A stretch of DNA of 49,796 bases, from positions 1 through 49,796 of the forward strand of contig JAETRI010000047.1 in the NCBI GenBank assembly GCA_021770245.1, written 5' to 3'. The DNA is from Lachnospiraceae bacterium (lineage in GTDB: Bacteria > Bacillota > Clostridia > Lachnospirales > Lachnospiraceae). Positions 4,435 through 46,393 of the stretch are shown here, piece by piece. Positions within the stretch are counted from its first letter, which is position 1. The number at the start of each line of letters is the position of its first letter. Both the position numbers and the translations under genes were made by a program. The notes beneath the pieces are model-generated. The model was given only the letters and a program-made list of their open reading frames with translations, ran no database searches and had not been told where the DNA came from.

Positions 4435-4463
4435 CGTTCCTCTCATTCTGCCGCCTGGCGGCT
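4435..4463 (-). repeat. Hairpin plus Shine-Dalgarno cassette before larE
   Basis: On the minus strand a GCCGCC/GGCGGC hairpin is followed by AGAATGAGAGGAACG and the larE ATG. The same AGAATGAGAGGAA string with a different stem precedes larB. Confidence 0.65.
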
Positions 4464-4465
4464 CC

Positions 4466-6055
4466 TCATTTCCTGCTCTCCCTTTTCACCAGATCATAGA
4501 CCTCGCCGAAAGGAAGCCCGTGTTCCTTAGCCAGCTCCACTACGCTGTCATACTCCGGATAGTAACGATCCTCCCCGGGTGCGGTACATACCTTCACGGA
4601 TGCTTCCCCAAGGGAAGTCGGCACCCGAAGCGTTCTCCTGGACAGAACGGAGCGTTCCATTTCCATTCGGCGGATACCGATGGTTGTCGTTTCCGAAAAG
4701 ATAATTTCCTCCAGTTTTGCCGCATCCTCCCGTGTACAGATCACGTTGAGCTGATATGCAGGTCGATTTTTCTTCATGAAAACAGGAGTATAATGCACGT
4801 CCCTCGCCCCTGCCTCCAGGAGCCTGTCCATCACATATCCCAGCATTTCCCCGCTGCAGTCGTCGATATTGGTTTCCAGCTTACAGATCCGATCCGTTTT
4901 CTGCTCCGTGCCTCCGATCAGCATGGCGCGCAGGATGCTGGGGCGTTCGTAATTACGTTTACCGGCCCCCATACCCACCTTCAGGATCTCAAACTCCTCT
5001 GGCAGCCGTTCCACGTTGCCGATCGCCGCCACAATGGCCGCTCCCGTGGGCGTCACCAGTTCCCCTTCCGTGTCCGTAATCTTCAGCTTCAATCCATGGG
5101 CCCGGGCGATATTTACCACCGCCGGAACCGGGACGGGAATGATGCCGTGCTGACATCTCACGCTCCCCCGCCCTTCGCACAGACCGGGAATCACCGTCCT
5201 GGTAATTCCCAGATTATCCAGGCATACGGCAACGGTAACGATGTCCACGATGGAGTCCACCGCACCCACCTCATGGAAATGCACCTCTTCGACTCCGAGG
5301 CCATGGGCCTGTGCCTCCGCCTGGGCTAAGATACGGAAAATCTGCTCCGCCGTATCCCTGGCCCGCTGCGTCATATCCGCTTTCCGCAGGATCTCCAGGA
5401 TCTCCCCGAGCCCTCTGTGGACATGGGCATGACCGTGGCCCGCCCCCGGATGGCCGTGGTCATGGTCTGATCCGTGGTGGGCATGGGAATGACCGGCAGC
5501 GGAATGGATGGGGCCGGCAGCCTCCTCGTGGGTATGGGGCCCGTGTTCATGGATCCCATGACCGTGATCGTGCACATGCCCGCCGCCATGGCTGTGGAGC
5601 TGTTCCGCCTCATGGGCATAGATATACTCACAGGCATAGTCCTTGTCATGGAGATGTTCATAGGCCGGATCGTTCTCATCCATATTTCCGTGCACCGGGA
5701 CGGAGGGCCGCGGTGTTTCATGCCCGGCGCGTTCGTCCCTGGCATGTTCTTCTATGCCCCAGCCCTCCGTTTCGCTATCCCGGTGCCCCTCCTTCTTTCT
5801 GCCGGAATCCCCGCCGTAGAGATATTCCATATCGTGGTCGTGGTTTTCATGGGCCGCATCCAGCTTCACATGAAAATCGCACACATCGAGCCCGGATTTT
5901 TTCACCCGGCTTATCTCCACGGTAAAGCCGTCCACACAAAGGGAATCCAACGCCTTTCCCAATACCTGCCTGTCCGCTCCCAGGTCCAGAAGGGCTGCCG
6001 CCATCATATCGCCGCTGATGCCGGACTGACACTCCAAATATAAATATTGATCCAT
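4466..6055 (-). CDS. larC: LarC, nickel insertion protein of nickel-pincer nucleotide synthesis
   Basis: LarC is a CTP-dependent cyclometallase that inserts nickel into the dithiolated pincer nucleotide. The start MDQYLYLECQSGISGDM is the hallmark N-terminus of the family, and VHFHEVGAVDSIVDI near 260 is another conserved block. At 529 residues the protein is about 100 longer than usual. The excess is a His-rich insert at about 68-215 with roughly 32 His, probably for nickel binding or storage. The gene is one uninterrupted frame, unlike the larC1/larC2 arrangement of Lactiplantibacillus that needs a programmed frameshift. The start has GGAG 4 nt upstream, supplied by a repeat cassette. It lies between larB and larE. 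Confidence 0.93.
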   Translation of the reverse strand: MDQYLYLECQSGISGDMMAAALLDLGADRQVLGKALDSLCVDGFTVEISRVKKSGLDVCDFHVKLDAAHENHDHDMEYLYGGDSGRKKEGHRDSETEGWGIEEHARDERAGHETPRPSVPVHGNMDENDPAYEHLHDKDYACEYIYAHEAEQLHSHGGGHVHDHGHGIHEHGPHTHEEAAGPIHSAAGHSHAHHGSDHDHGHPGAGHGHAHVHRGLGEILEILRKADMTQRARDTAEQIFRILAQAEAQAHGLGVEEVHFHEVGAVDSIVDIVTVAVCLDNLGITRTVIPGLCEGRGSVRCQHGIIPVPVPAVVNIARAHGLKLKITDTEGELVTPTGAAIVAAIGNVERLPEEFEILKVGMGAGKRNYERPSILRAMLIGGTEQKTDRICKLETNIDDCSGEMLGYVMDRLLEAGARDVHYTPVFMKKNRPAYQLNVICTREDAAKLEEIIFSETTTIGIRRMEMERSVLSRRTLRVPTSLGEASVKVCTAPGEDRYYPEYDSVVELAKEHGLPFGEVYDLVKRESRK

Positions 6056-6151
6056 TTTGCTCCTATCCGCCTGCTTTAGCAGGCACTCGCATCAGGGAAG
6101 TTGAAAGCGTCCTTCTTTCAACTTTGCTCCCGTCTGCCTGCTTTAGCAGGC
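6056..6151 (-). repeat. Composite hairpin cassette between larB and larC
   Basis: Read on the minus strand, two copies of the hairpin GCCTGC-TAAA-GCAGGC flank a hairpin with arms AAGTTGAAAG and CTTTCAACTT (6098-6124). The upstream copy is followed by AGACGGGAGCAAA, the downstream one by GGATAGGAGCAAA and the larC ATG. The same three-part layout recurs at 27498-27596. Confidence 0.8.
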
Positions 6152-6153
6152 AC

Positions 6154-6906
6154 TCACACCCGCGGTTTTAAGGCCAGCCTGTTAATCTGCGTGGCCATAT
6201 ATCCCGCTCCGTAACCGTTATCAATGTTGAGAACCGCAATTCCGTTTGCACAGGAATTGATCATGGTCAAAAGAGCCGACAGCCCGTGCATGCTGGCCCC
6301 GTAGCCCACCGATGTGGGGACCGCCAGCACCGGATTACTCACCAGCCCGCCGATCACGCTGGCCAGCGCGCCTTCCATACCCGCCACCGCCACCACACAG
6401 TTGGCGCTTTGGATCACATCCAGCCTGGAAAGAAGCCGGTGCAGGCCGCTCACTCCCACGTCATAGAGCCGTTCCACCCTGGTGCCGAAGAATTCTGCGG
6501 TCTGAGCCGCCTCTTCCGCCACAGGGATGTCGGCGGTCCCTGCCGTACATACCGCCACTTTTCCGATTCGTTCCTTCCCTTCCTTCTCTATTTTCAGGAT
6601 TCCGGAAATCCCGTCGTAGCACGCCTGCGGGAAACGCTCCCGGACTAATTCATACTGATGAGCCGATGCACGGGTTCCCAGCACTTCCCCCTCCGCCTCA
6701 TACAGCCGTTCGTAAATGGCGAGCAGATGGGCATCCGCCTTCCCGCTGCAGAATACCACCTCCGCGAAACCGGAACGCAGTTTCCTGTGGGAATCCAGCT
6801 TTGCATATTCCAACTCCTCAAAGGGCTCTTTCTTGAAAAAAGCCTCCGCTTCTTCCAACGTCATGTCTCCGTTTTTAAACCGGAGCAATACTTCCTGTGC
6901 GTCCAT
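6154..6906 (-). CDS. larB: LarB, pyridinium-3,5-biscarboxylic acid mononucleotide synthase
   Basis: LarB carboxylates and hydrolyses nicotinic acid adenine dinucleotide, the first committed step to the nickel-pincer nucleotide of lactate racemase and related epimerases. The 250-residue protein has the small helical N-terminal part (VLLRFKNGDMTLEEAE) and a C-terminal PurE-like domain containing VCTAGTADIPVAEEA and GMEGALASVIGGL, both typical of LarB. The reading frame is open further upstream to 7038, but ATG 6906 has AGAGGAAG just before it and begins the conserved protein. It follows the transporter ATPase by about 76 nt and precedes larC, so one transcript is likely. Confidence 0.93.
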   Translation of the reverse strand: MDAQEVLLRFKNGDMTLEEAEAFFKKEPFEELEYAKLDSHRKLRSGFAEVVFCSGKADAHLLAIYERLYEAEGEVLGTRASAHQYELVRERFPQACYDGISGILKIEKEGKERIGKVAVCTAGTADIPVAEEAAQTAEFFGTRVERLYDVGVSGLHRLLSRLDVIQSANCVVAVAGMEGALASVIGGLVSNPVLAVPTSVGYGASMHGLSALLTMINSCANGIAVLNIDNGYGAGYMATQINRLALKPRV

Positions 6907-6934
6907 TCTTCCTCTCATTCTGCCGTCTGCGGCG
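6907..6934 (-). repeat. Hairpin plus Shine-Dalgarno cassette before larB
   Basis: On the minus strand a short GCCG/CGGC hairpin is followed by AGAATGAGAGGAAGA and the larB start codon. The downstream string matches the larE cassette. Confidence 0.6.
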
Positions 6935-6982
6935 GCCCTGCGGCCGGCGGAGGTTCCCCCTGATCCTGCTGCCGCACTCTCC

Positions 6983-7609
6983 TTAGAAAGCCTTGTCATC
7001 CGCCGGATATTCCAGCTGTACCTGCCTGGTACACACATAATCCAAAAGCTCCCTGCTGTGGCTTGCCACCACCATGCCGATCCGCCTTCTGCTCGTCTCT
7101 TCCATCAAAAAACGCCATATCTGTCCCTGGGTGATGAGATCCAGCATGGTGCTGATCTCATCCGCCAGCAAATACCTGGTCCGCTGCCCCAGCGCCCTCG
7201 CAATACAGAACCGCTGCAGCTCGCCTCCGGATAATTCCCCGGGATACCGCCGCTTCCACTCTTCTTCGATTCCCAGCCGTTCCAACAGCTCCTCTTCGAT
7301 CCGGTCCCCTTCCTCCAGAACCTTCCCCAAATGCAGGCGGGGATTCACCGCCCTTTCGGGATGCTGCCAGATCATCTGCACCGGGCAGTATCCACGGGAA
7401 GGCAGAGGCCGTCCGTCCACGGACACCCGTCCGGAATCCGGCCGCAGGAAGCCGCCCAGAATCTTCATCAGAGTCGTCTTTCCCGCTCCGCTTGGCGCCG
7501 CGATCCCCACCCGTTCCCCGGGGGATACCTGCAGGCTCACCCGCTCCAAAACGGGCCTGGCGCCCTTCCGGCTCCCATATGAAAACGTAATCCCTTCCGC
7601 TTCCAGCAT
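6983..7609 (-). CDS. ABC transporter ATPase, NikE/DppF-like
   Basis: Second ATPase of a nickel/peptide-type (Opp/Nik family) importer, working as partner of the ATPase half of the fused gene upstream. Over 208 residues it shows Walker A APSGAGKTT near 38, the signature LSGGELQR near 124 and Walker B RYLLADE. It is shorter than OppF-type proteins and lacks their C-terminal extension, as NikE proteins do. It starts about 16 nt after the stop of the fused gene and is followed by larB. The neighbourhood points to nickel as substrate; no residue in the ATPase itself shows specificity. Confidence 0.88.
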   Translation of the reverse strand: MLEAEGITFSYGSRKGARPVLERVSLQVSPGERVGIAAPSGAGKTTLMKILGGFLRPDSGRVSVDGRPLPSRGYCPVQMIWQHPERAVNPRLHLGKVLEEGDRIEEELLERLGIEEEWKRRYPGELSGGELQRFCIARALGQRTRYLLADEISTMLDLITQGQIWRFLMEETSRRRIGMVVASHSRELLDYVCTRQVQLEYPADDKAF

Positions 7610-7625
7610 ATCCTTTTTTCACTCC

Positions 7626-10504: not shown

Positions 10505-10553
10505 GCTTATTCCCTCCGGCTCCCGGCCGCCCTGCTTTAGCGGGCATTCCGAT
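10505..10553 (-). repeat. Hairpin cassette between binding-protein and permease genes
   Basis: On the minus strand the sequence ATCTTCGATTTCA runs through the last codons of the binding-protein gene, and is followed by a GCCCGC-TAAA-type hairpin at 10529-10545 and then GGGAGCCGGAGGG and the permease ATG. The same ATCTTCGATTTCA plus hairpin pair precedes the response regulator (34516-34605). Confidence 0.6.
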
Positions 10554-12208: not shown

Positions 12209-12238
12209 CCCTGCCTCCCTTCCGCGCGCTTTGGCGCA
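12209..12238 (-). repeat. Hairpin plus Shine-Dalgarno cassette before the binding-protein gene
   Basis: On the minus strand GCGCCAAAGCGCG forms a small hairpin followed by GGAAGGGAGGCAGG and the ATG at 12208. It belongs to the same hairpin-then-GGGAG family as the mocR and larC leaders. Confidence 0.6.
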
Positions 12239-12390
12239 CATACCTATCAGGAATCCGCCCCGCCGCCAAACGCATACGCAGGCCGGGGAATGATAATCCT
12301 GAGATTTCATGCAATAAAAATACCACAAAAGCATTCCTTCCCCTGGGGAAGCCAATGCCTTCATGGCATAAATAAATCACACTTTTCTTT

Positions 12391-12459: not shown

Positions 12460-12466
12460 GGAGATT

Positions 12467-13677: not shown

Positions 13678-13835
13678 ATTAGGTCATGCATCGGAGATTC
13701 ATGACCGTCACTCGCCGCTCGTCGAACATGCAAGCATGCTCTCCTCGCTGATACTCATTAGGTCATGAATCGGAGATTCATGACCGTCACTCGCCGCTCG
13801 TCGAACATGCAAGCATGCTCTCCTCGCTAACACTC
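13678..13835. repeat. Tandem 79-bp repeat, two units, in the lacI leader
   Basis: Two nearly identical 79-bp units (13678-13756 and 13757-13835) lie between the lacI promoter and coding region. Each holds the hairpin TCATGAATCGGAGATTCATGA (slightly altered in unit 1) and CATGCAAGCATG, plus CGCTCGTCG and CTCCTCGCT. The long N-terminal extension of the lacI frame is an artefact of this repeat. Confidence 0.9.
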
Positions 13836-15913: not shown

Positions 15914-15985
15914 GTTTTTGCTCCCCTCTGCGCGCTTTTGCGCGCATTCTATTCAGGGAAGTTGAAAGCGTCTTTCTTTCAACTT
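15914..15985 (-). repeat. Hairpin plus Shine-Dalgarno cassette before mocR
   Basis: Read on the minus strand: hairpin with arms AAGTTGAAAG and CTTTCAACTT (15959-15985), CCCTGAATAGAAT, hairpin GCGCGC-AAAA-GCGCGC (15930-15945), then AGAGGGGAGCAAAAAC and the mocR ATG. Confidence 0.8.
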
Positions 15986-17983: not shown

Positions 17984-18054
17984 CTTTGATGGCAGATGAG
18001 AATTCGCATACGCGAATTCTCATCGCCTCGTCGCGTAAACGCTCCAGAATGGAG
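17966..18054 (+). repeat. 89-bp start-codon element, copy B2
   Basis: Begins CCGGAGCGTCGC, has an inner hairpin with arms GATGAGAATTCG and CGAATTCTCATC and ends ACGCTCCAGAATGGAG. The GGAG is the ribosome binding site of the DUF975 gene, with the ATG exactly 6 nt later. Confidence 0.85.
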
Positions 18055-18060
18055 ATTAAA

Positions 18061-19077
18061 ATGGATCGATTACAACTGAAAACGGATGCGAAGGCTGCCA
18101 TGCAGCAGACAAGTCCCCATCCTGCACTCGTTACCCTCGTCTATGTAGTGGTGATTTTTGCCGTGGAAATGATCGTTTCCCTGATATCCGGTTTTTCCTC
18201 ACTTTTTTCCATGCTGGCCTATGATTCTTCCGCTGCTGCCGCCATGGCCGCCGGAATGGCCGTCCCTACCGCCCTGCTTTCCCTGGCCGTTTCCATGGTG
18301 ATGTCGGTTCTAAAGCTCGGGTATACCGGCTACTGTCTGCGCGTCATTAACCGGCATCCGGCCGGTATCGGCGATCTTTTCGGATACGCCAGATATTTCC
18401 TGAAGGCTTGGGGGCTCACACTCGTCATGGGATTTTTCGTTTTCCTCTGGTCCCTTCTTCTCTATATTCCGGGAATCATCGCCATGTACCGTTATTCCAT
18501 GGCGTATTATATCCTGGCGGAGGATCCCGAGAAGGGGATCATGGACTGCATTCGGGAAAGCAAGGCCATGATGATCGGCCACAAGCTGGATAAATTTGTA
18601 CTGGATCTTTCTTTTATTTTATGGATTCTGCTCGTCTGCGTTACCTGCGGGATTGCCGCCCTGTACGTAAGCCCTTATATGGGGATTACGGAGGCTGCTT
18701 TCTATAACAGCCTAAAATACGGATATGGAAGCTATCAGCCAGGCTACGGAGCGGGAGGTTATCAGCAGGGCTGTCAGCCGAATTTCCAGCAGGGAGGTTA
18801 TCAGCAGGCCTATGATCCCAATGCACCGCAGGGAGGTTATCAACAGGCTTATGATCCCAATTACCGGCAGGGAGGCTATCAGCAGGCTTATGATCCCAAT
18901 TACCAGCAGGCCTACGGCGCCAATGCGTCACAGAATACCTACCAACAGTATGATTCCGGTTCGGCGCAGGATCCCTATCAGCAGTCTGGTCCCGGTACGG
19001 CAGGGAATTCGTATCAGCCAAATTATGATGCCGGTCAGGGGGACAGCTTCCGTCCGAATAACGGCGGCGGTATCTGA
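18061..19077 (+). CDS. DUF975-family membrane protein with Gln/Tyr-rich repeat tail
   Basis: Integral membrane protein, function unknown. The first about 220 of 338 residues hold several membrane segments and the DUF975 pattern (YTGYCLRVINRHPAGIGDLF, then IPGIIAMYRYSMAYYILAEDP, then IRESKAMMIGHK). The last about 115 residues are Gly/Gln/Tyr/Pro-rich, with three to four near-copies of GGYQQAYDPNxxQ, and look disordered and prion-like. ATG 18061 is set by GGAG 6 nt upstream in element B2; the longer open frame from 17986 is repeat-derived. The gene stands alone before the M23/bactofilin pair. Confidence 0.8.
   Translation: MDRLQLKTDAKAAMQQTSPHPALVTLVYVVVIFAVEMIVSLISGFSSLFSMLAYDSSAAAAMAAGMAVPTALLSLAVSMVMSVLKLGYTGYCLRVINRHPAGIGDLFGYARYFLKAWGLTLVMGFFVFLWSLLLYIPGIIAMYRYSMAYYILAEDPEKGIMDCIRESKAMMIGHKLDKFVLDLSFILWILLVCVTCGIAALYVSPYMGITEAAFYNSLKYGYGSYQPGYGAGGYQQGCQPNFQQGGYQQAYDPNAPQGGYQQAYDPNYRQGGYQQAYDPNYQQAYGANASQNTYQQYDSGSAQDPYQQSGPGTAGNSYQPNYDAGQGDSFRPNNGGGI
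18772..18930 (+). repeat. In-gene tandem repeat of about 39 bp
   Basis: Near-identical units encoding GGYQQAYDPNxxQ lie in the 3' part of the DUF975 gene. Three units are close copies and a diverged unit precedes them. Slippage here would change the length of the tail without breaking the frame. Confidence 0.8.
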
Positions 19078-19385
19078 ATATTCGAGGTATTTCGGCAGGT
19101 TCTATCCGGCCCGCCCGTCAGGAAGCTTCTTCCGTTTTTCGGCGCGTATGCGCGTCAGTCGAAAAATATGCCCGAAAATCCAGAAAATATATGTTGGTTT
19201 TGTATTTCTAATATGGTATGATTAAAAAAGAAGCTCAGGATGAAAAATGGCCGGACCGCCATTTTTCATCCGAAAATTTACGCCCGCCGCAGCGCGCAGA
19301 CGGGGAGGCAGAGGTGCAGGATTTTTTCGATTCTTCCTCCTCCCCGATCGATACGCGCGCTAAAGCGTGCAGACGGAGGCCATAG
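19078..19385 (+). other. Leader of the M23/bactofilin operon with promoter and hairpin repeats
   Basis: No gene. It contains a promoter at 19194-19222, a hairpin with arms GGATGAAAAATGGC/CCATTTTTCATCC at 19238-19271 and a GCGCGC-TAAA-GCGTGC hairpin at 19355-19370, followed by AGACGGAGG and the ATG at 19386. This is the plus-strand counterpart of the minus-strand hairpin cassettes. Confidence 0.6.
19194..19222 (+). promoter_or_regulatory. Promoter of the M23/bactofilin operon
   Basis: -35 TTGGTT (19194-19199), 17-bp spacer, -10 TATGAT (19217-19222) in AT-rich context. A hairpin repeat lies right behind it. Confidence 0.55.
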
Positions 19386-21924: not shown

Positions 21925-21965
21925 TTCTTCTCTACCTCCTGCCTATCGCAGGCAGTGCCTGCGAT
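21925..21965 (-). repeat. Hairpin plus Shine-Dalgarno before the transformylase gene
   Basis: On the minus strand GTATCGCAGGC and GCCTGCGATA form a hairpin that runs into GGCAGGAGGTAGAGAAGAA and the ATG. Position relative to the start resembles the other hairpin cassettes, though the sequence differs. Confidence 0.6.
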
Positions 21966-22006
21966 ACTGCCGCCAATAAAGAGCCTGAAGGCCTCAGGCT
22001 CATCCT

Positions 22007-22717: not shown

Positions 22718-23098
22718 CGACTCCTCCGTTCCGCCGACTCCGCATCGTAACCGGTTCTGCCCGTCCGTGCGAAACAATAAATGCCGTCCCGTAAAGCCGG
22801 CGGCATCCGTCAGACGCCCGGCTTCGTAAATCGGCTTTTATTGTAAAAAAACCGTCTGGCTACTCGTTCCCTCAAGTACCCAGGCGGCCGGCTTTCCCCG
22901 TGTATACTCCCTGTGGTGCTCCACCAATCCGCCAGTCGTATACACTTCCTTCAGTTTCCGGGGCCGCCCGCGCTGCGGGAAGCCCTTATGGATTTAAGTA
23001 TATCCTATCGTCCTTTTTCTGGCAAGGTATTTTGCGGAAAAACACGGCAGATTTTGCGGAATTTCTGCAAAAACGCATTGCAGGAAGCGGGAAACAAT

Positions 23099-24638: not shown

Positions 24639-24813
24639 CACGGCCAAATGACCGAGCGGCCCTGAGTCCTCTGCGGCGCCGCAGCCCTGTGAAATTTTTC
24701 GTGGAAAAAAATCCGTTCTTCGCTTATAATACCTATAAGTCCGCAGGAAACATCCGGCGCCCCGGCTTCCCGCCGGCATGCAATGCCGCAGATGCGGCAG
24801 AATGTGAGGAAGA

Positions 24814-26238
24814 ATGGTAAATACGCATCGTCTACGCAAAAAAGAACTCCGGAAAGAACTTCTCTTTTATGGGACTGCCTTTCTATGCATGGCAGTCCTT
24901 GCCTTTATACAGCCCTTTGGCGAAGGTCCTGACGAGATCAACCGTTTCCGGGTGGTACAATACATCTGCGACAATGCCAGCCTCCCCCGAGGGGATGACC
25001 CGGCCGTCCTGATTCCGGGCTACGGCGGTTCCTATGCCTTCCAGCCTATGCTTCCCTATATCATCCAGGGCCACCTCCTGGGGATCCTGCGCATCTTCAC
25101 AGACCGCTTCGACGTGCTCCTGATCGCCGCGCGGATGGTGAACGTATTCTTCGGGCTGGGCGCTGCATACTGTACCCGACGGCTTTCCCGCGTTCTCTTC
25201 CCGGAGAAAACGACGCAATGGATTTTTTCCTTTCTGGTGGTCTTCCTGCCCCAGAGTATCTTCATCCATACCTATGTAAATACGGACTCCTGCGCCGTCT
25301 TTTCCGTCCTCCTGATGTTTTCCGTCGGGATCGAAGGAATGCGGGACGGATACGACCGGAAAAGATGCGGTCTGATCGCCCTGGGTGTGATCCTGTGCAC
25401 CCTTTCCTATTATAATGCCTACGGTGCCATCCTGGTCACCGCAGCCCTTTTCATCAGCACCTATTTAACCCGGATTGCCGCGCATGTCATCGCCTCGGAC
25501 GGTACCGCCTTCCCCATCGACAGGATCCGCGTGGAATGGGGGCCTCTGCTGCGGGGCGGCTTTTTCATCGCATTTCTGGTTTTGGCCGGAACGGGCTGGT
25601 GGTTTGTCCGGAATGCTCTCCTCTATGAGGGGGACTTTTTGGGAATGGCTGCCAGAAACGCCTGCGTGGCTTCCACCTGCACGCCGGAATATCATCCCCT
25701 GCTCAAAACCACTTATCAAAGCCAGGGAATCGGCGTTCTCACCATGGTGTTTGGAACGGATTATTATGCCCTGCTCCGGCGGAGTTTTGTGGCCATGTTC
25801 GGACCCATGAGCCTTCCCACCCACTATTATATCTATGAAACTTATTACAAGATTTTTGCCGTAGGCCTGCTGGCCGCCCTGCTTCCCGCAGGCTATGACC
25901 TGCATTTAATCTGGATGAAGCGCAACCGCCGGTTCTTTCTGGGCCTTTGTATGTTCCTGATGTGTGCAGTCACCATCTTTCTGTGCATCTATTATTCCTA
26001 TACCTGGGACTTCCAGCCCCAGGGGCGCTATCTGATGCCCATGCTTCCTTCCTTTATGTATCTGGTCACCCTGGGCATCCGAAGGGTATTCTACCTCGTT
26101 TCGGAGCTTTTGGACAGGCTGAGATGCCGCGGCCTGGCGCAGGTACTGCCCGACTTCCTTGGCAGGCTGATCCTCGCTTTCATAGCCGCGGCACTCTTCT
26201 ATACCGTATTTGCGGTGGCCGTTCCCCATTACTTATAG
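24814..26238 (+). CDS. Polytopic membrane protein, DUF2142/GT-C-like
   Basis: A 474-residue membrane protein with about ten or more predicted helices. The acidic motif GEGPDEINRFR follows the first helix, as in DUF2142 proteins and GT-C glycosyltransferases, where such a loop binds a lipid-linked sugar donor. Further features are the extracytoplasmic stretch with YGGSYAFQP and the late motif QGRYLMPMLP typical of the family. The substrate is unknown; a role in cell-surface glycan synthesis is likely by family. It is a single gene and is followed directly by a 41-bp-arm inverted repeat. Confidence 0.75.
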   Translation: MVNTHRLRKKELRKELLFYGTAFLCMAVLAFIQPFGEGPDEINRFRVVQYICDNASLPRGDDPAVLIPGYGGSYAFQPMLPYIIQGHLLGILRIFTDRFDVLLIAARMVNVFFGLGAAYCTRRLSRVLFPEKTTQWIFSFLVVFLPQSIFIHTYVNTDSCAVFSVLLMFSVGIEGMRDGYDRKRCGLIALGVILCTLSYYNAYGAILVTAALFISTYLTRIAAHVIASDGTAFPIDRIRVEWGPLLRGGFFIAFLVLAGTGWWFVRNALLYEGDFLGMAARNACVASTCTPEYHPLLKTTYQSQGIGVLTMVFGTDYYALLRRSFVAMFGPMSLPTHYYIYETYYKIFAVGLLAALLPAGYDLHLIWMKRNRRFFLGLCMFLMCAVTIFLCIYYSYTWDFQPQGRYLMPMLPSFMYLVTLGIRRVFYLVSELLDRLRCRGLAQVLPDFLGRLILAFIAAALFYTVFAVAVPHYL

Positions 26239-26385: not shown

Positions 26386-27497
26386 CTACAGCCCATACAC
26401 CTGCGCCGCAAGCAGGCAAAACATGGAATCGGCCCATGCAAACCAGGAGCGCGTAAACTCCTCCGGCCTGTCCGGATGGAAACCTTCATGCATGTGCCAG
26501 GTTCCCGCCGTGGTTTTCCTCAAAGTCTCCAGAAGCTCTTTCTTTTCCTCCGGTGTCTCCGCGGTCAGGCCCTGTACCGCCAGGGCGATGTGCCACACAT
26601 AGCCGTCCGGCGTATGGGGACTCCCGATTCCACTGGCCAGCCTGCCCGAGAAGTAGAACGGGTTGGATCTGCTTAACAGGAATTTCCGTGTGTTGCGGTA
26701 GATGGAGTTTTCCTTTTCACAGAAACCGAACCAGGGCGCTCCCAGGAGGCTGGGCAGATTGGCGTCGTCCATCAGATTATAATGTCCCAGGCCATCCACC
26801 TCATAGGCAAAGATTTCCCCGTACTCCGGATGCTTCACCACGCCCCATTTATAGATCCCCTGCTCGATCTCCTCTGCCAGCGCCGCAGCTTCTTCCACCA
26901 GATCCTCTTCCAAGGGCAGCTCCCGCAGCCCCTTCAGCACGCTCACCGCAAGCATGTTAGAGGGGATCAGATAATGGTATGTGCAGGAATCATCGCTGGG
27001 CCTGAATCCCGACCAGGTCATGCCGGTATACCCCACGGGGGATCCCTTTCCCTCCTCGCTCAGGGTTTCCGTGGGAAGTTCGCTGTCGCGCTGGAACCGG
27101 TACGTTGAGTTTTCATGGCGCTGTTCCCTCTTCCACACATCGAGAATCAGCCGGATGGCCTTTTTCACCTGATCCGTGACCACTTCCCCGCCCTTTCTCC
27201 TGCAGTATTCCTCCAGCAGAAAGCAGGGGAAAGCAAGGGAATCCACTTCATACTTTCTTTCCCAGATATGGGGGCCCATCTCCGTTTCATCCCTGCTGTA
27301 ACAGGCATAGTCCCCGTTTTTGTTAAAGGCATTGGCATAGGGGTCGATCAGAATCAGCTCCCGTCCTCCTGCCTGCTCAGCGTGGTTTCCCAGGTACATC
27401 CAAAGCAGTTTTTATACAGCCGTTCCATCTCCTCATCTCTGATCCGGCTGCAGTCTTTTTCCAACAGCACCAACATTCCTTTGGTCATACTTTCCAT
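26386..27497 (-). pseudogene. GH125 exo-alpha-1,6-mannosidase, broken by an internal deletion
   Basis: The main frame (26386-27399, 337 codons) carries GH125 blocks: LILIDPYANAFN, RKYEVDSLAFPCFLLEEYC, GYTGMTWSGFRPSDDSCTYHYLIPSNM, and RFW-like ends. The N-terminus lies in another frame at 27354-27497: an ATG with GGGAG upstream opens 47 codons (MERLYKNCFGCTWETTL) that stop inside the downstream frame. Comparing with the family from memory, about 60-70 residues between these blocks, including the usual ITGD...WLRDS segment, are missing, and the join is out of frame. Hence this is most likely a dead gene. GH125 enzymes trim mannose from N-glycans. It follows the transglycosylase gene. Confidence 0.75.
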
Positions 27498-27596
27498 ATT
27501 TTGCTCCCCTCTGCCCGCTTTAGCGGGCCTTCCAATCAGGGAGGTTGAAAGCGTCCTTCTTTCAACCTTGCTCCCCTCTGCCCGCTTTAGCGGGCC
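27498..27596 (-). repeat. Composite hairpin cassette before the GH125 pseudogene
   Basis: Read on the minus strand: hairpin GCCCGC-TAAA-GCGGGC (27580-27595), AGAGGGGAGCAA, hairpin AGGTTGAAAG/CTTTCAACCT (27542-27568), CCCTGATTGGAAG, second hairpin GCCCGC-TAAA-GCGGGC (27513-27528), AGAGGGGAGCAAAAT, ATG. The layout equals that before larC with different stems. Confidence 0.85.
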
Positions 27597-27630
27597 TCCT
27601 AACCAGGAGAAATCATCTCCCGTTCCCGGA

Positions 27631-28368
27631 TTACTCGTTTTCGTCCCCGGCTGCCGCCTGTTCTACCTCCGCCAGGATCGCCCCCGCCTGTTGTTCGGTC
27701 AGATAATCCTGTTTTACCATGCAGGCGATCACCTGCCTCTGCCTCTGCGCCGCCAGCTCCGGCCGGTTGGTTAACGCATAGACCGACGGCGCATTGGGGA
27801 TTCCCGCCAGGAGTGTGCTCTCGTAATCCGTCATTTCCTCCGGCAGTTTGCCGAAATACCCTTCCGCCGCATCGTAAACGCAGTAGTAACCGCTGCCGAA
27901 ATAGATGGTGTTCACATACAGCTCCAGGATTTCTTCCTTCGTATAAGCCCGTTCCAAGTCAAAGGCCACGAACAGTTCCGCAACCTTGCGCAGGATCTTC
28001 TTTTCCTGTGAAAAATACATGTTCTTTGCCAGCTGCTGGGTGATGGAACTTCCGCCCTCCGCCAGCTCCTTCTCCCGCAGGTTGATAAAAAGCGCCCGTC
28101 CCGTTGCAATCAGGTCAATTCCCCCATGGGTGTAAAACCGCTTATCCTCCACTGCCACCACCGCGTTGACATAGGTTTCCGGGAGCGAAGAAAACGGCGT
28201 ATAATTCTGATTTTCTCGTATCTGCGCCACCTTTTCGCTAAGCGGCATCTCCGAAACCGCCTCCCGGTATATCTGGTAGCCCTCCCACGTCAATGCTCCC
28301 CCTCCCACGATCAGGGCAAGGAGAAGGAAAAAAAGTGTCAGTGTGATCAATTTCTTCAAAAAGCGCAT
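27631..28368 (-). CDS. Monofunctional GT51 peptidoglycan transglycosylase
   Basis: Polymerises lipid II into glycan strands at the outer face of the membrane. The 245-residue protein has one N-terminal membrane anchor (about 5-28) and a GT51 domain only: EDKRFYTHGGID with the catalytic Glu near 74, then GGSSITQQLAKN, KVAELFVAFDLER and ELYVNTIYFG. No transpeptidase domain follows, so it is of the MtgA/MGT type. It starts after a hairpin cassette with GGGAG. The broken GH125 gene lies downstream. Confidence 0.93.
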   Translation of the reverse strand: MRFLKKLITLTLFFLLLALIVGGGALTWEGYQIYREAVSEMPLSEKVAQIRENQNYTPFSSLPETYVNAVVAVEDKRFYTHGGIDLIATGRALFINLREKELAEGGSSITQQLAKNMYFSQEKKILRKVAELFVAFDLERAYTKEEILELYVNTIYFGSGYYCVYDAAEGYFGKLPEEMTDYESTLLAGIPNAPSVYALTNRPELAAQRQRQVIACMVKQDYLTEQQAGAILAEVEQAAAGDENE

Positions 28369-28410
28369 CTGGATTCTCCCTTAACTCCCATCTGCCCGCC
28401 TTGGCGGGCA
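28369..28410 (-). repeat. Hairpin plus purine-rich leader before the transglycosylase gene
   Basis: On the minus strand GCCCGC-CAAG-GCGGGC (28394-28409) is followed by AGATGGGAG and then TTAAGGGAGAATCCAG and the ATG. Upstream lie two more small hairpins (GGAAACGAAAGTTTCC and GTGAAATCTCCGATTTCAC). Confidence 0.75.
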
Positions 28411-28765
28411 TTCAAATCAGGCTAAGGAAACTTTCGTTTCCTGTGAAATCGGAGATTTCACACAATCATCCCGCATATTCCGTTCCCATCCGGGTCTTGT
28501 GGCACGCTGCCCTCCCCGCATGCAGCAAAAGCCCTCTCCCCCGTGGCATACCGCAGGCCGGACGGCTGCAGACGCCAAATACATGGGGTATTATTAAGGA
28601 TATGACATCTTTCCTCTTTTTACAAGCTATTTCTGGGAAAAGTTTTTCCAAAGAAAATGGGAAGAATTTATTAAAATTCTTCCCATAGGATCCTTCCTTT
28701 GCGGCCCGGCGTCCGGGAACCCGTGGGGGCCGCACGGTTATGGGCCTTGCAGCGGCCCTTGGGCA
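28411..28765. other. Spacer between the FtsX permease and transglycosylase genes
   Basis: No gene. It contains small hairpins next to the transglycosylase leader, an AT-rich palindrome TGGGAAGAATTT/AAATTCTTCCCA (28658-28685) and a fragment matching the right end of the large A element (28687-28728). It should also hold the transglycosylase promoter, not identified. Confidence 0.4.
28687..28728. repeat. Truncated right end of the large palindromic A element
   Basis: About 42 bases (AGGATCCTTCC, then CCCGGCGTCCGGGAACC) match the right end of copy A2 at roughly nine of ten positions. The rest of the element is absent. Confidence 0.6.
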
Positions 28766-34515: not shown

Positions 34516-34605
34516 TGTCCTTCCTTTCTTCCGCTCTGACTCCCATCTGCCCGCCTTGGCGGGCATTCAAATCAAGATCGTGAAATCGAAGATTTCTCGC
34601 TAACT
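34516..34605 (-). repeat. Hairpin cassette before the response regulator
   Basis: Read on the minus strand: GAAATCTTCGATTTC hairpin, ACGATCTTGATTTGAAT, hairpin GCCCGC-CAAG-GCGGGC (34549-34564), AGATGGGAG, then a purine-rich run to the ATG 33 nt later. Nearly the same as the cassettes before the transglycosylase and nickel permease genes. Confidence 0.75.
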
Positions 34606-37671: not shown

Positions 37672-37772
37672 TTCTGGCTCCCATCTGCGCTCTTTAGCGC
37701 GTACAAATCGGGAGAGTGAAAGAGATAAAGACTCTTTCCCTCTTCCTATCATTCTGCCCGTTTCAGCGGGCA
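37672..37772 (-). repeat. Composite hairpin cassette before the DUF6106-like gene
   Basis: Read on the minus strand: hairpin GCCCGC-TGAA-ACGGGC (37756-37771), AGAATGATAGGAAGAGGG, hairpin GGGAAAGAGTC/GACTCTTTCCC-like, then GCGCT-AAAG-AGCGC (37687-37700), AGATGGGAGCCAGAA and the ATG. Same architecture as before larC. Confidence 0.75.
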
Positions 37773-40345: not shown

Positions 40346-40351
40346 AGGAAC

Positions 40352-40440: not shown

Positions 40441-40711
40441 CACAAACTGCCGGGTTGAAAAAGGCCGTCGGGACTTTTTTCAACCTAACCGCTATTCTGC
40501 CGCCGCAAGGCGGCTCTCAATTTAAAGGGAACTTTGTGCGGCAGCACAAATTCCCGGTTGAAAAATGACCGCAGGTCATTTTTCAACCTATCCCTCCCTG
40601 CCGCGTCCTTCGCGGCTGCGCGATGGGAAACCGTGAATGCGGTTTCTCATCCGTGATTCAATTTGAGCCTCCCGCGGCACGGTCATCCACAGCGGGCGAA
40701 CCGGAGTCCGG
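40441..40711 (-). repeat. Hairpin-rich spacer between gatA and gatB
   Basis: This stretch is built almost wholly of hairpins. GGTTGAAAAA-arm hairpins lie at 40453-40485 and 40556-40588, a GCCGCC hairpin at about 40499-40515, TTTGTGC/GCACAAA at about 40533-40550, and a block GCCGCG...GCGGCTGCGCGATG...GTGATTCAATTT at about 40608-40672 that recurs before gatC (42526-42592). No gene. Confidence 0.75.
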
Positions 40712-42175: not shown

Positions 42176-42206
42176 ATTAACCCCTTTCATGCCCGCCTTC
42201 GGCGGC
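42176..42206 (-). repeat. Hairpin plus Shine-Dalgarno cassette before gatA
   Basis: On the minus strand CCGCC-GAA-GGCGG (42193-42205) is followed by GCATGAAAGGGGTTAAT and ATG. The last part is identical in front of glnA (49302-49318), although the genes are unrelated and 7 kb apart. Confidence 0.75.
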
Positions 42207-42214
42207 TCTTCGCG

Positions 42215-42508
42215 TCATTCCACGGTCTTCGGTACCCGGAACATCCCGTCCTTTACACCCGGGGCATTGGACAGGATCGCATCCCTCTCGTCCCCGTTGG
42301 TAACCACATCCTCCCGGAATACGTTCGTGTAGGGAAAAATATGGGACATGGGTTCCACCCCGTCGGTATCCAGTTCGTTTAGTTTATCGATATAATCCAG
42401 CATACGGCCCATGTCGGTTTTGGCCTGCTCCTTCTCCTCTTCGGACAATTCCAGTTTGGCCAGGATACTCACGTATTCGATCGTCTCGTCTGTGATGATG
42501 TTCGCCAT
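42215..42508 (-). CDS. gatC: Asp-tRNA(Asn)/Glu-tRNA(Gln) amidotransferase subunit C
   Basis: Small subunit that wraps around GatA and stabilises the GatAB complex. 97 residues, typical length. Pattern: [23 protein letters not shown] at the start, then [23 protein letters not shown] and the end [22 protein letters not shown]. It precedes gatA by 39 nt. The leader has a repeat block and GAAAGGATTGAT before the ATG. Confidence 0.95.
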
Positions 42509-42592
42509 ATCAATCCTTTCATGCCGCGTCCATTGCGGCTGCGCGATGTGAAATCGCGAATGTGATTTCTCATCTGTGATTCAATTTAAGCC
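42509..42592 (-). repeat. Repeat block before gatC
   Basis: Minus-strand hairpin GCCGC...GCGGC then GCATGAAAGGATTGAT and the ATG. The block, with GTGATTCAATTT at its other end, recurs at about 40608-40672 and, more diverged, before glnA (about 49318-49400). Confidence 0.7.
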
Positions 42593-42767
42593 GCTCCTTA
42601 GCTTTCTCAGCCTCAAGGTTCCAAACGGCTCGTAATCTCCCCGCGATTTGAGCCGTATCTTGGCTTTCTCAGCCTCAAGGTTCCAAACGGCTCGTAATCT
42701 CACCGCGATTTGAGCCGCGCCTCGGCTTTCGCAGCCTCAAGGTTCCAAACGGCTCAAATCGCGGGGG
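42582..42767. repeat. Three tandem 62-bp units including the 3' end of aspS
   Basis: Units at 42582-42643, 42644-42705 and 42706-42767 each contain CCTCAAGGTTCCAAACGGCT. The third holds the last codons and stop (42737) of aspS; the other two are copies downstream of the gene. Confidence 0.92.
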
Positions 42768-44068
42768 AACAGGGTGGTTTCGCGGACATTGTCGTCACCT
42801 GTAAGCTGCATGGTGAGGCGTTCCAGTCCGATTCCCAGGCCGCCGTGGGGCGGCATGCCGTGTTTGAAGGCCATCAGGTAGGCTTCCATCCCCTCCGTCG
42901 TCATGCCGCGTTTTGCAATCTTTTCAAGCAGCATGGGATAGTCGTGGATGCGTTGTCCCCCCGTGGTGATCTCCATCCCTTTAAAGAGGCAGTCAAAGCT
43001 TAAGGTGCAGGCAGGATCCTCCGGGTCATCCATGGCGTAGAAAGGGCGTTTCCTGCTGGGATAATGGGTGACGAATACGAAATCGGCTCCGTATTCCTCC
43101 TGAAAATATCTGCCGATCAGGCTTTCTTCCTCCGGCTCCAGGTCATAGGGATTTCTGATGGGGCGGTCATATTTCTCCGAAACCAGCCGTTTGGCTTCCT
43201 CGAATCTGACGGCCGGGATCCTGTCCGCGTCCGGCAGGGTGATGCCCATAAGATCCAGTTCCCTTCCGTACTCGGCCCGGAGCGTTGCCATCATACACTG
43301 CAATACCCCTGTCTCCATGGCCATCACCTCTTCAAACCCGTCGATATACCCCATCTCAAAATCCAGAGAAGTATATTCGTTCAGGTGCCGCCTGGTGTTA
43401 TGCTTCTCCGCACGGAATACAGGCGCGGTTTCAAATACCCGGTCGAAGACGCCCACCATCATCTGCTTGTAGAACTGCGGGCTCTGGGCCAATACGGCCG
43501 GCCGATGAAAATAATCCATTTTGAAAATATTCGCGCCGCCCTCCGCTCCCTTGGAACCGATCTTCGGCGTATGGATTTCCGTGAAACCCTGTTGTGTCAA
43601 AAACTGCCTAAAGCCCCTCACGATACCCTCCTGGATCCGGAACCTGGCCCGTTCCCTCACGTTCCTTAAGGAAATGGGGCGCAGATCCAGCCGGGTTTCC
43701 AGGCTGACGTTCATTTTCGACTTGGCAATCGGAATCGGCATGGGTTCCGCAGGCTCGGACAGGATCCTCACGCTCCTTAGTCTGATCTCGATCCCGCCCG
43801 GGGCCCGTTCGGAGAGGGCGACCACGCCTTCCGCCTCTATGGTGTCGGCTTCCTTCAAATCCTTCAGGGAAAAATCCGCTTCCTTCTCCTCATATACGCA
43901 TTGGAGCAGGCCGTCCCGTTTCCTCAGTACGAGAAAAGCAATGGTACCCATATCCCGGATGGTATGGACCGCCCCATTGACCACGACCGTCCTTCCCTCC
44001 ATCCCTGTCTGCATCAGCTCGGTGATTTCCAATGTTTTCTTTTGAAGTACTCCTGTTAAAAATTCCAT
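42737..44068 (-). CDS. aspS: Aspartyl-tRNA synthetase, archaeal type (probably non-discriminating)
   Basis: Class II synthetase of 443 residues. It has the OB-fold anticodon domain (about 20-110) and the catalytic core with FTEIHTPKI (motif 1), VFRAEKHNTRRHLNEYTSLDFEMG (motif 2, in part) and GLGIGLERL (motif 3). It lacks the large insertion of the usual bacterial AspRS of about 590 residues, so it is the AspS2 type. Such enzymes often charge tRNA-Asn with Asp as well, which GatCAB then amidates; the gatCAB genes directly downstream support that. ATG 44068 has AAGGAG upstream. A T-box precedes the gene. Confidence 0.93.
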   Translation of the reverse strand: MEFLTGVLQKKTLEITELMQTGMEGRTVVVNGAVHTIRDMGTIAFLVLRKRDGLLQCVYEEKEADFSLKDLKEADTIEAEGVVALSERAPGGIEIRLRSVRILSEPAEPMPIPIAKSKMNVSLETRLDLRPISLRNVRERARFRIQEGIVRGFRQFLTQQGFTEIHTPKIGSKGAEGGANIFKMDYFHRPAVLAQSPQFYKQMMVGVFDRVFETAPVFRAEKHNTRRHLNEYTSLDFEMGYIDGFEEVMAMETGVLQCMMATLRAEYGRELDLMGITLPDADRIPAVRFEEAKRLVSEKYDRPIRNPYDLEPEEESLIGRYFQEEYGADFVFVTHYPSRKRPFYAMDDPEDPACTLSFDCLFKGMEITTGGQRIHDYPMLLEKIAKRGMTTEGMEAYLMAFKHGMPPHGGLGIGLERLTMQLTGDDNVRETTLFPRDLSRLEP

Positions 44069-44424
44069 GGCTTTGGTCTCCTTTTTTTGAATGGCTGCAG
44101 CGGCCCGGCCGGGCCATTGCAAATGCTTTCCATTTCCCCTGCGGGGCGAATCTTTGATTGTTCCAAACCGGGGCAGGAGGGATTCTTCCCCGGCCTGCCC
44201 TGCGGGTTCGCGCTGCGTCCCTGCCGAAATCTCTTCTGCATTTTGGCAGAGGATAAACGCGCCTCACGCCCGAACTGTCCTGAAAATCGGGCAGGGGAGA
44301 CTTTTCCCTTGCTCGCCGCACGACCCGTGTGCCACTTCAGTGGCATACTTCCTCAGCACGGGCCTATGCAATCGAGTAGGGCGCGTGCTACCTTGGCAGC
44401 AAACTTCCTCACGCGCCCTTGCGC
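44069..44424 (-). other. Long leader between the T-box terminator and aspS, with paired hairpins
   Basis: About 356 nt without a gene. On the minus strand two similar hairpins at about 44379-44419 and 44327-44368 have an outer GC-rich stem, a 5' bulge GAGGAAGT followed by A or T, and an inner stem. Further on are GGGCAGG/CCTGCCC-type inverted repeats (about 44170-44225) and GGCCCGGCCGGGCC near 44104. Confidence 0.5.
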
Positions 44425-44765
44425 ATTAAAAAATCCCGGAGTGCTTTCGCACTCCGGGACGGATCAATCATAAATCCGCGGTACCACCCGCATTGACAAG
44501 ACGGCACTTCCACCAAAATGCTTCTTCGCCTTATCCACTCACGGGAACCGTCCTCATACCGCCTGCCCTTTGCAAGGCGGTCTCCGGCCGTTCCCTCCAC
44601 TTAACGCGTGTTCACGTACTGCCCTACGCTCCGGCCTCCGGCCGGACTTTCAGGCAATCGGCTCCCGGGTGTTCCCATAACCAGCTTTCACAAGCAGCGC
44701 TCTCAGTCGGTGACGCCGCATTCCTGTCGTTTCCCCTGATCAGAGTCCCGTTCCATGCCTTTTTC
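44425..44765 (-). promoter_or_regulatory. T-box leader controlling aspS-gatCAB
   Basis: The antiterminator consensus GGGTGGTACCGCGGA is present on the minus strand (44475-44494). It is followed by a terminator with stem TCCCGGAGTGC/GCACTCCGGGA (44434-44459) and a T-run. Stem I shows AGAG and TGTGAAAGC. Its specifier region contains GGGAACACCCGGG, in which GAAC (44671-44674) offers AAC (Asn) and overlapping GAA (Glu). Uncharged tRNA would stabilise the antiterminator and turn on the operon. A dual-codon T-box of this kind is known for the C. acetobutylicum transamidation operon. Confidence 0.88.
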
Positions 44766-44860
44766 AAATTTGTTTCACATCTTAGCACAGAAACTTTTGA
44801 AAAGCAAGTATTTTTTTCCTTTGCAAATGGGGTTGCAAATGGGGTTAAGTATCAGTTCAA

Positions 44861-45122
44861 CCACCCCGCAGGCTCCCGGACGCCGGGATGCACAGGGAAG
44901 GATCCTGCCGGAAGCCATCTGCCGCTTTGATGCTGATTCTTAAGCCGATGGGAGCGGCTTCCTTGCGAATGCGGCGTTGTCCGACGAGCATAGCGAGGAG
45001 TTTAGCCGCATTCGCAAGGTCCGAAGCCGGGAGCAGCGGCTTTAGAAGCAGCCCAAAGCGGCAGCGGGGTTCCGGCAGGATCCTTCCCTGTGCGTCCCGG
45101 CGTCCGGGAACCTGCGGGGTGG
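44861..45122. repeat. Large palindromic element, copy A2 (complete)
   Basis: 262 bp between dapL and the T-box. Ends CCACCCCGCAGG and CCTGCGGGGTGG pair, and the pairing continues through about 50 bp with few mismatches. Inner arms are CTTGCGAATGCGGC/GCCGCATTCGCAAG around a 29-base core loop, with side hairpins. Against A1 the arm position GGGG/CCCC has become GGGA/TCCC, a compensatory change. Confidence 0.9.
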
Positions 45123-45148
45123 CTGTTACGGGGTTAACCCGGATACGG

Positions 45149-46363
45149 TCAGATACCCTTGATCCGATCCACCGCCTCCACCGTGTTTTCATAGGTTCCA
45201 AACGCGGTCAGGCGGAAATAGCCTTCCCCGCTGGGGCCGAAACCGGAGCCGGGCGTTCCGACCACATTAGCCCGCTCCAACAGGAAGTCAAAAAAATCCC
45301 AGCTCGTCATCCCGCCCGGGACCTTCATCCAGATATAGGGAGAGTTGATTCCCCCCGATGCCTCATATCCGGCATCCTTCAGGCCGTTTCGGATCACATC
45401 TGCATTTTTCATATAATGCTCCACCATCCCGCGGACCTGCTCCTGTCCGCATGAGGTGTATACCGCTTCGCCGGCCCGCTGAACGATATAGGGCGCGCCG
45501 TTATATTTCGTCCCATGGCGTCTGGCCCAGAGCGCATGGAGGGATATTCCGCCGGCCTTCAACTCCTTGGGCACCACCGTATAGCCGAGTCGCAGCCCGG
45601 TAAAGCCCGCGTTTTTGGAAAAGGAGCGCAGTTCAATGGCGCATGTCCGGGCTCCCTCGCATTCGTAGACGCTGTGGGGGATATCCTTTTCGGAAATGTA
45701 AGCCTCATAGGCTGCGTCAAAGAGGATCACAGCCCCTTCCGTATTGGCATAATCCACCCATCGCTGCAGCTGCTCCTTTGTCACCGCACAGCCGGTGGGA
45801 TTGTTGGGAAAGCACAGATAGATCAGATCGGGCCTCCCTTTTGGCAGTTCCGGCACGAAGCCGTTTTCCGCCGTACAGGGCATATAGATGACGTTACTCC
45901 ACTTCTGCAGCTTTTCGTCATAATCCCCGCACCGTCCGGCCATCACATTGGAATCTATATACACCGGGTATACGGGATCGCAGACCGCGATCCGGTTATC
46001 CGGGCCGAAAATTTCCTGGATATTGGCGGAATCCGACTTTGCCCCGTCCGATATGAAAATCTCGTCCGCAGCGATCCCGCATCCTCTCGCGGCGAAATCC
46101 TTCTCGGCGATGGCATTCCGCAGAAAATCATAACCCAGATCCGGCGCATAGCCCCGGAAGGATACGGCATCCCCCATTTCGTCCACGGCCTTATGCAACG
46201 CTTCCACCACTACGGGAGGGAGGGGCAAAGTGACGTCCCCGATCCCCAGGCGGATGATTTTCCGGCCGGGATTGGCGGCCGCATAGGCGTTCACCTTTTT
46301 CCCTATGGTTGAAAAAAGATAGCTCCCGGGCAGTTTCAGATAGTTATCATTTATTTTAAACAT
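45149..46363 (-). CDS. dapL: LL-diaminopimelate aminotransferase
   Basis: PLP enzyme that makes LL-diaminopimelate from tetrahydrodipicolinate in one step, for lysine and peptidoglycan. 404 residues, usual length. Signature stretches: [11 protein letters not shown] at the start, [31 protein letters not shown], and the PLP Lys in [16 protein letters not shown]. It follows dapF by about 60 nt on the same strand, which then makes meso-diaminopimelate. The start has CAGGAG upstream in a hairpin cassette. Confidence 0.97.
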
Positions 46364-46393
46364 GTCCCGCTCCTGTCTGTGCGCTTTAGCACG
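46364..46393 (-). repeat. Hairpin plus Shine-Dalgarno cassette before dapL
   Basis: On the minus strand GTGC-TAAA-GCGCAC is followed by AGACAGGAGCGGGAC and the dapL ATG. It is the same arrangement as before larC and mocR with another stem sequence. Confidence 0.7.

Follow-up and report, generated by a model that had tools for sequence, protein, structure and literature searches.

Why should genes of unrelated function in one bacterium begin behind copies of the same kind of small hairpin? The question is raised by a stretch of 49,796 nucleotides (hereafter the window) of a Lachnospiraceae bacterium (assembly GCA_021770245.1, contig JAETRI010000047.1, positions 1 to 49,796), where 12 copies of a hairpin with a GC-rich stem, of 6 bp in most cases, and a 4-base loop are followed, in transcript orientation, by AGANGGGAG(C) and then usually by a start codon. 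An original prediction, made from the letters of the window, had named ten genes behind such hairpins and proposed two explanations, an RNA hairpin under selection or a mobile cassette from which genes obtain ribosome sites. The hairpins are genuine and far above chance. We consider it likely that they belong to a small dispersed repeat, here called the type 1 cassette, which was amplified in a pair of sister species within one genus of the Lachnospiraceae and displaced old Shine-Dalgarno (SD) sequences as the ribosome-binding sites of genes; at many unrelated genes it now seems to be the repeat, in place of the gene's earlier signal, that sets where the ribosome begins.

Anatomy and abundance of the type 1 cassette

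A covariance model (R1) was built from 15 copies, among them 10 of the 12 in the window (those at 37677 and 10519 did not contribute). R1 matched all 12 window copies with E-values of 4.4e-13 to 1.4e-6 and recovered a hairpin before each of the ten named genes, including the putative nickel-binding protein and putative nickel permease that the original prediction had called weaker cases (Table 1). Across the genome (G000), at least 152 matches were listed (best 150 of 3,192 first-look candidates scored), and the exact core pattern GCTAAAGCNNNNAGANRGGAGC had 23 matches against 0 for a reversed control. Positions were analyzed in 449,796 bases, namely the window and 20 further stretches, each of 20 kb; these stretches lie, mostly at regular spacing, on contigs drawn from the R1 match list. 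This sample held 59 R1 matches, of which 15 weaker ones were excluded from the position count and 44 (E ≤ 0.001; 32 outside the window) were kept. Extrapolation gives roughly 340 copies per genome, possibly too high a figure since the sampled contigs had been ones with matches.

The full unit is larger than the hairpin and SD first described: an element of ~35 to 85 nt made up of an optional hairpin B, a linker CCTGATTTGAAT, hairpin A (GC-rich, with a NAAA-type loop) and the SD, with AGANGGGAGC as its 3' word. Hairpin B, whose arms include GGTTGAAAG, GAGTGAAAG and CGTGAAATC, lies upstream of the linker in 41/74 strict copies (3/74 after shuffling). Units are also stacked head to tail with a period of ~67 nt. 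In two stretches (L040 and L236), TTAG often flanks both sides of hairpin B units of the CGTGAAATC class, which could be a target duplication or merely the usual 3' end of a cassette.

Position relative to start codons and downstream genes

An SD core at the usual spacing of a ribosome-binding site was found at 30 of the 44 copies, where a start codon (29 ATG, 1 TTG) follows GGGAG by 4 to 9 nt and opens a reading frame of at least 50 codons (hereafter “start-linked”). The same test was passed by 12.6% of random intergenic positions and, on the mirror strand, by 5/44 copies. For the type 1 3' end, the usual distance from SD to ATG is 5 to 6 nt. Start-linked copies made up 24/32 of those outside the window (at one of the 24, L054:18390, inspection gave the ATG to a following hairpin, and the copy is probably stacked) and 6/12 of those inside it. 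The remaining copies comprised six that were stacked, six within 200 nt 5' of a same-strand gene, and two elsewhere. The original prediction's description of an SD-bearing hairpin followed by the start codon needs qualifying at two of the named genes: another SD lies between hairpin and ATG at the transglycosylase (AAGGGAG) and at the response regulator (GGAAGG).

A scan free of any motif placed the 3' end of perfect stems (≥5 bp) at position −15 in 31 of 611 G000 genes (0.4 in shuffled sequence). Between −18 and −11, hairpin ends were counted at 84/611 genes in G000 (14.3 expected from dinucleotide shuffles; the 84 is possibly somewhat high), 38/270 in the sister species G107 (4.7 expected), 6/108 in G200 (2.0 expected) and 8/163 in G205 (0.7 expected). 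Between −40 and −33, G107 had 6 hairpin ends (5.7 expected). Because stretches L047 and L228 share 10 kb, a few genes are double-counted in these scans and in the counts of typed cassettes given below. A generic hairpin scan also returned many hairpins within genes, which are probably due to chance and were excluded from all counts. One weak hairpin at 7065, before a reading frame starting at 7038, was likewise set aside as probable chance; the gene caller prefers a start at 6906, which has a type 2 cassette (see below).

The downstream genes have no function in common, as had been claimed: 20 scanned proteins were unrelated (NrdR, an ABC ATPase, an amidohydrolase, response regulators, an IspD-like protein, a glycosyltransferase, MutL, RecG, a MecA-like protein, LarC, MocR, M23 and an aminotransferase [DapL] among them). 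Pfam matches fit the names originally given to 9/10 proteins (Ni_insertion, GntR plus aminotransferase, Transgly, response regulator, DUF6106, M23, aminotransferase, SBP_bac_5 and BPD_transp_1). A promoter was considered and rejected as the common purpose because 8/29 start-linked copies (L054:18390 outside this list) lie within 60 nt behind a codirectional gene, which leaves little room for one.

Gain and loss in related species

Copy number differs widely within the genus. R1 found at least 150 copies in G000 and at least 155 in G107; among 11 other members it found at least 16 in G203, at least 12 each in G201, G205 and G210, at least 1 each in G200 and G208, and none in five among the best 150 candidates scored in each (the best 150 of ~2,000 to 3,300 candidates were scored per genome, and low counts are lower bounds). 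With stricter filters, 12/200 family genomes had R1 matches, counting G000 and G107. An exact-pattern scan of a species-level genome collection returned 81 stretches, and all but one of the 80 that were examined had titles naming Lachnospiraceae, Kineothrix, Anaerocolumna, Eisenbergiella, Parablautia, Lachnoclostridium, Roseburia or Clostridium sp. KNHs205. We take the six genera from Kineothrix to Roseburia, and strain KNHs205, to belong to the Lachnospiraceae; the exception (L077, from a “Clostridium sp.” bin) could not be placed. Within the 81 stretches, 69/94 exact copies were start-linked (16.6% of random positions), 58 of these exactly 4 or 5 nt after GGGAGC; of the other 25, 8 were labelled as arrays and 17 as other. 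The same layout occurs in several cultured isolates and is therefore not an assembly artefact of a single bin; cultured bacteria with copies include Kineothrix alysoides, Eisenbergiella porci and Clostridium sp. KNHs205. The exact pattern had no match in a collection of viral contigs, and carriage by phages was rejected as an explanation.

The clearest single gain lies upstream of the transglycosylase gene. Aligned with G107, the region shows one clean 82-nt gap with homology on both sides and an end ambiguity of at most 1 nt, and the corresponding region of G206 has no such unit. The copy lies between GGGATGA on its 5' side and the gene's own AAGGGAG on its 3' side, so that an SD-like core, and not the start codon, marks the site there. 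Other genes differ between genomes as well. The DUF6106 gene bears a cassette in G000 and G107, and 0/10 other genus members examined have type 1 there; at mutL, type 1 was present in G000 and in 0/11 others examined (G202 bears another palindrome at that place); at recG, G000 carries type 1 and G107 type 3, and 0/10 others examined have type 1; and the dapL cassette is absent from the two orthologues examined. In G205 and G210 the recG start adjoins a stop codon, and ~164 nt separate that stop from the start in G000. Manual inspection of gene pairs from the two sister species (pairs inside genes or without a type 1 cassette excluded) gave 10 with type 1 in both, most with altered stems, and 12 with it in one only (one of them ambiguous).

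Proposed insertion behind existing SD sequences

Where units land was assessed with 142 distinct hairpin B units, defined by hairpin, linker and SD regardless of the 5' flank. Directly behind a unit of their own kind were 68 of these. Among the 74 non-stacked units, an SD core (GGAG, GAGG, AGGA, GGGG or GGGA) lay within 8 nt of the 5' end in 35, as opposed to 10/74 for the flank 30 nt further up (P = 1e-5), so that about half of them have older SDs upstream; in 11/74 the unit is preceded by the 3' terminus of another type of cassette, which elsewhere abuts ATG. In the window, the hairpin B directly upstream of the MocR unit is preceded by AGAGGTGAACA, which we interpret as an older SD. The simplest reading is that units may insert downstream of an SD, in many cases before the ATG that it serves, and carry a new SD with them. 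The landing site would lie a few nucleotides past a purine core that resembles an SD, and frequently the copy would come to separate a gene's SD from its start codon; the copy's purine-rich 3' end would displace the old SD and become the ribosome-binding site, the 3' word presumably acting as an SD in the cell. The inserted cassette would also recreate an SD-like target, which would explain the tandem stacks. The mobile cassette supplying ribosome sites that had been predicted is thus well supported by the clean insertion, amplification in one lineage, stacking, orthologues that lack type 1, and older SDs upstream.

That the copies move by an insertion reaction preferring SD-like targets is what we infer. 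A mobile palindrome could instead have inserted at random, with placement left to selection alone. This differs from the insertion behind SDs favored here in the choice of target, and the two overlap and are not exclusive. Such random insertion would account for the window copies at 28384 and 34539, which lie upstream of a retained SD, for the two of 44 copies elsewhere, and for the 39/74 non-stacked units with no SD core within 8 nt upstream. It also predicts that copies should be common at neutral sites, such as antisense positions, gaps between convergent genes and places far upstream of starts, whereas 42/44 copies lie at, are stacked on, or are within 200 nt 5' of a same-strand start, and the excess of SD cores 0 to 8 nt from the 5' end is contrary to it as well. 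We regard it as possible but doubtful. Similarly doubtful, and compatible with the preferred reading, is an enzyme-free route by template switching or gene conversion at the GGAG microhomologies of SDs. GGGAG-like cores delimit many units at both ends, and arrays vary in number, seemingly changing in concert: array copy number at the same gene differs between the sister species (L222/L095 and L118/L236), and at L222/L095 the array units share the stem and hairpin B of their own species, as if homogenised. Template switching alone, however, does not explain a high copy number in two sister species only.

The hairpin as RNA

Stems were said to differ while pairing stays, and covariation bears this out. 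In 150 R1 hits (138 distinct), 86 cells of the alignment had changed on both sides of a pair, compared with 35.3 (sd 3.5) after shuffling, with double changes in 4/6 stem pairs; 97.9% of cells were paired, against at most 52.0% for slid partners, in an alignment that was fitted to the model and so biased towards pairing. All six pairs were kept in 118/136 start-linked copies and in 68/99 others (Fisher P = 0.001). When 117 leaders were folded, hairpin A had a median probability of 0.96 and exceeded 0.8 in 78, and the SD core was paired with the linker in about one-fifth of the ensemble. The covariation and the fuller pairing of start-linked copies partly support selection on the hairpin, which may act on the mRNA.

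The covarying stem, the better pairing of start-linked copies and the 10 gene pairs in which the start has a hairpin in both sister species, usually with stems that differ, would also suit an inherited translational control element, namely an ancestral SD-hairpin under selection that shares an RNA-binding protein or ribosome feature and has no mobility. Set against this are same-genus orthologues without the hairpin, copy numbers from 0 to at least 155 within the genus, the clean insertion, the tandem stacks and the 12 gene pairs with a copy in one species only (one ambiguous), and we think inheritance of this kind improbable. Rfam cis-regulatory RNAs (riboswitches and leaders) likewise resemble the cassettes in having a covarying hairpin before genes, and differ in that the cassettes precede unrelated genes, number at least 150, are gained and lost as discrete units and have no Rfam match: no Rfam family covered any copy in the window at the gathering score, nor was anything near the gathering score found at 27400-27700 with E-values up to 10. 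A riboswitch or known structured RNA therefore lacks Rfam support. The sole Rfam match in the window at the gathering score was a ZMP/ZTP riboswitch (22871-22949, minus strand, 55.1 bits).

Several results weigh against an SD-displacing repeat whose hairpin is under selection. On the side of mobility, the 82-nt insertion at the transglycosylase is the only one with two clean ends, rearrangement affecting most of the other loci that differ; target-site duplications were not established; a different, longer-loop inverted repeat precedes the SD in several DUF6106 orthologues that lack type 1; and the 39 non-stacked units mentioned above also belong here. As to position, hairpins in G000 are enriched farther upstream too, if less strongly (34 between −28 and −21 [14.7 expected]; 26 between −40 and −33 [10.3 expected]), the G000 start scan includes stretches picked with the match list in view, and gene starts throughout come from a simple in-house caller. 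At the level of RNA, the wobble asymmetry between G.U and A.C was not significant (54 versus 38, P = 0.12; 28 versus 15 in start-linked copies, P = 0.066; 26 versus 23 in others), after removal of the 28/264 anchor-defined sites in which fewer than three pairs were Watson-Crick, and the unpaired probability of the SD core was 0.46 with or without the left arm of the hairpin (P = 0.70, 117 leaders). We accordingly rejected a constraint acting on RNA only, and also an insulator model in which the hairpin holds the SD open. The predicted selected RNA hairpin thus agrees with the covariation and the better pairing of start-linked copies and disagrees with the wobble test and the folding of the SD. 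Finally, as regards an enzyme, the Y1 transposase profile (PF01797), the only transposase or reverse transcriptase searched for, had 0 matches in the copy-rich G000 and G107.

Relation to known repeats

Palindromes of a cassette with a GGGAG foot, arranged in arrays, resemble bacterial interspersed mosaic elements (BIMEs). The repetitive extragenic palindromes (REPs), BIMEs and REPINs associated with the REP-associated tyrosine transposase (RAYT, or TnpA-REP) are alike in their short palindromes, many extragenic copies, head-to-tail arrays and lineage-specific amplification, and the cassettes might be REP/REPIN-type elements mobilised by a RAYT or IS200-like Y1 transposase. A Y1 match was present in 6/13 genus members, including all four with 12 to 16 copies and 2/7 with 0 or 1 copy, though no other of the 11 genomes is as large as these four. 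In the two species described in PMC3733652, REPs adjoin gene 3' ends, whereas the cassettes precede start codons, in one orientation, and carry an SD. For the cassette-rich genomes, in which no Y1 transposase was matched, this mobility is unsupported, and we hold it to be very unlikely overall. Miniature inverted-repeat transposable elements offer a further likeness, in that the 82-nt unit is a discrete mobile insertion absent from a relative.

Repeats are able to add promoters or terminators, and BOX, ERIC and Correia-type repeats are built from palindromic modules, lie in transcribed intergenic DNA and can influence neighboring genes. We know of none of these three that keeps a near-fixed distance from starts or provides many genes with their SD. 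Structure near the SD is also found in standby sites and in structured leaders that modulate translation; to our knowledge such leaders are features of single genes, and the cassettes are a dispersed repeat. No precedent for such cassettes was found among the papers listed in searches of an open-access library, which omits most subscription journals.

If the reading favored here is true, translation could change genome-wide by a new route, in which a repeat seizes many genes' ribosome-binding sites. The cassettes would form a natural library of hairpin and SD parts, with stems, loops and spacers varied at known loci, and a testable case of target choice, namely whether a mobile sequence can find SDs. 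They also raise the question of whether a hairpin ending ~15 nt before ATG aids or hinders the 30S subunit. Upstream regions in these bacteria would be palimpsests, and motif searches there would catch insertion history besides regulation.

Further hairpin-SD families

At least three further families of hairpin and SD occur at starts (types 2 to 4), each with an SD word of its own, and there is probably a fifth. Type 2 is GCCGC..GCGGC AGAATGNGAGGA, type 3 is GCAAGC..GCTTGCGATATGCAGGGG, and type 4 is GCCGC..GCGGC ATGRARG. The exact type 2 pattern had 55 matches in G000, 58 in G107 and 34 in a genome of another Lachnospiraceae genus (G173), with 0 in the control, and was present in 16/200 family genomes. 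Strict patterns that include ATG numbered 29, 15, 7 and 15 for types 1 to 4 in 845 kb of G000 and 17, 7, 1 and 2 in 390 kb of G107; G200 had none and G205 had one, of type 1. The low end of the range given in the original prediction (4435) falls in one of these related cassettes, of type 2, and not in the hairpin it described. A bolder reading, less likely than not, is a guild of mini-elements (types 1 to 4, perhaps more), each ending in an SD and homing behind SDs already present via an SD-recognising route, for which a transposase, reverse transcription and template switching are candidates. Translation starts would then have been rewritten in a sizeable share of genes, including the core genes mutL and recG.

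Table 1. Cassettes of types 1 to 4 in the window
Feature	Position	Strand	Gene	Basis and remarks
Type 1 unit (linker, hairpin A, SD)	6059..6092	-	larC, start 6055	R1, 43.2 bits; ATG right after SD and spacer
Stacked second type 1 unit, 67 nt upstream	6126..6159	-	larC	R1, 47 bits; repeat family D2
Diverged type 1 unit	10519..10553	-	Permease, start 10504	R1, 31.5 bits
Type 1 unit	12214..12247	-	Solute-binding protein, start 12208	R1, 41 bits; PF00496
Type 1 unit	15920..15953	-	MocR-type regulator, start 15913	R1, 49.4 bits
Type 1 unit	19347..19380	+	M23 peptidase, start 19386	R1, 39.8 bits
Type 1 unit	27503..27536	-	First fragment of split gene/putative GH125 pseudogene, ATG 27497, 47-codon frame	R1, 52 bits
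Stacked type 1 unit, 67 nt upstream	27570..27603	-	Putative GH125 pseudogene	R1, 48.5 bits
82-nt insertion (two upstream hairpins, linker, hairpin A, SD)	28384..28465	-	Transglycosylase	Pairwise alignment; absent in G107; R1 match 28384-28417
Type 1 unit	34539..34572	-	Upstream of response regulator, ATG 34515	R1, 46.5 bits; other SD nearer ATG
Type 1 unit; extra hairpin and hairpin B upstream	37677..37708	-	DUF6106, start 37671	R1, 33.6 bits
Type 1 hairpin and SD; linker unrecognisable	46369..46402	-	dapL, start 46363	R1, 37.2 bits
Type 2 cassette, GCCGCC..GGCGGC AGAATGAGAGGA	4432..4468	-	Start codon 4434	Pattern family
Type 2 cassette	6904..6940	-	Start codon 6906	
Type 2 cassette	24780..24816	+	Start codon 24814	
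Type 3 cassette (hairpin TATCGCAGGC..GCCTGCGATA, GGCAGGAGG)	21925..21966	-	Gene start 21924	
Type 4 cassette (GCCGC..GCGGC ATGAAAGG)	42506..42539	-	Start codon 42508	
Type 4 cassette	49299..49333	-	Putative start codon 49301	Gene caller chose 49316, same frame

A candidate sixth kind, GCGTAAACGCTCC..GGAGATTAAAATG, stands at a start in the window (18036-18061), and a similar form occurs at mutL of G202. The window also holds repeats of other kinds. A ~270-bp repeat (44849-45125 and 1-250) has many copies genome-wide, with matches in both orientations, and a further repeat family, partly of long palindromes like CAGGACAAACGCATGAACG, was seen at 3532, 23099, 26251, 34717, 38866 and 49682. Tandem repeats were present at 42584-42769 (62 nt × 3) and 13678-13835 (79 nt × 2), and a 39-nt tandem repeat lies within a coding frame at 18753-18908.

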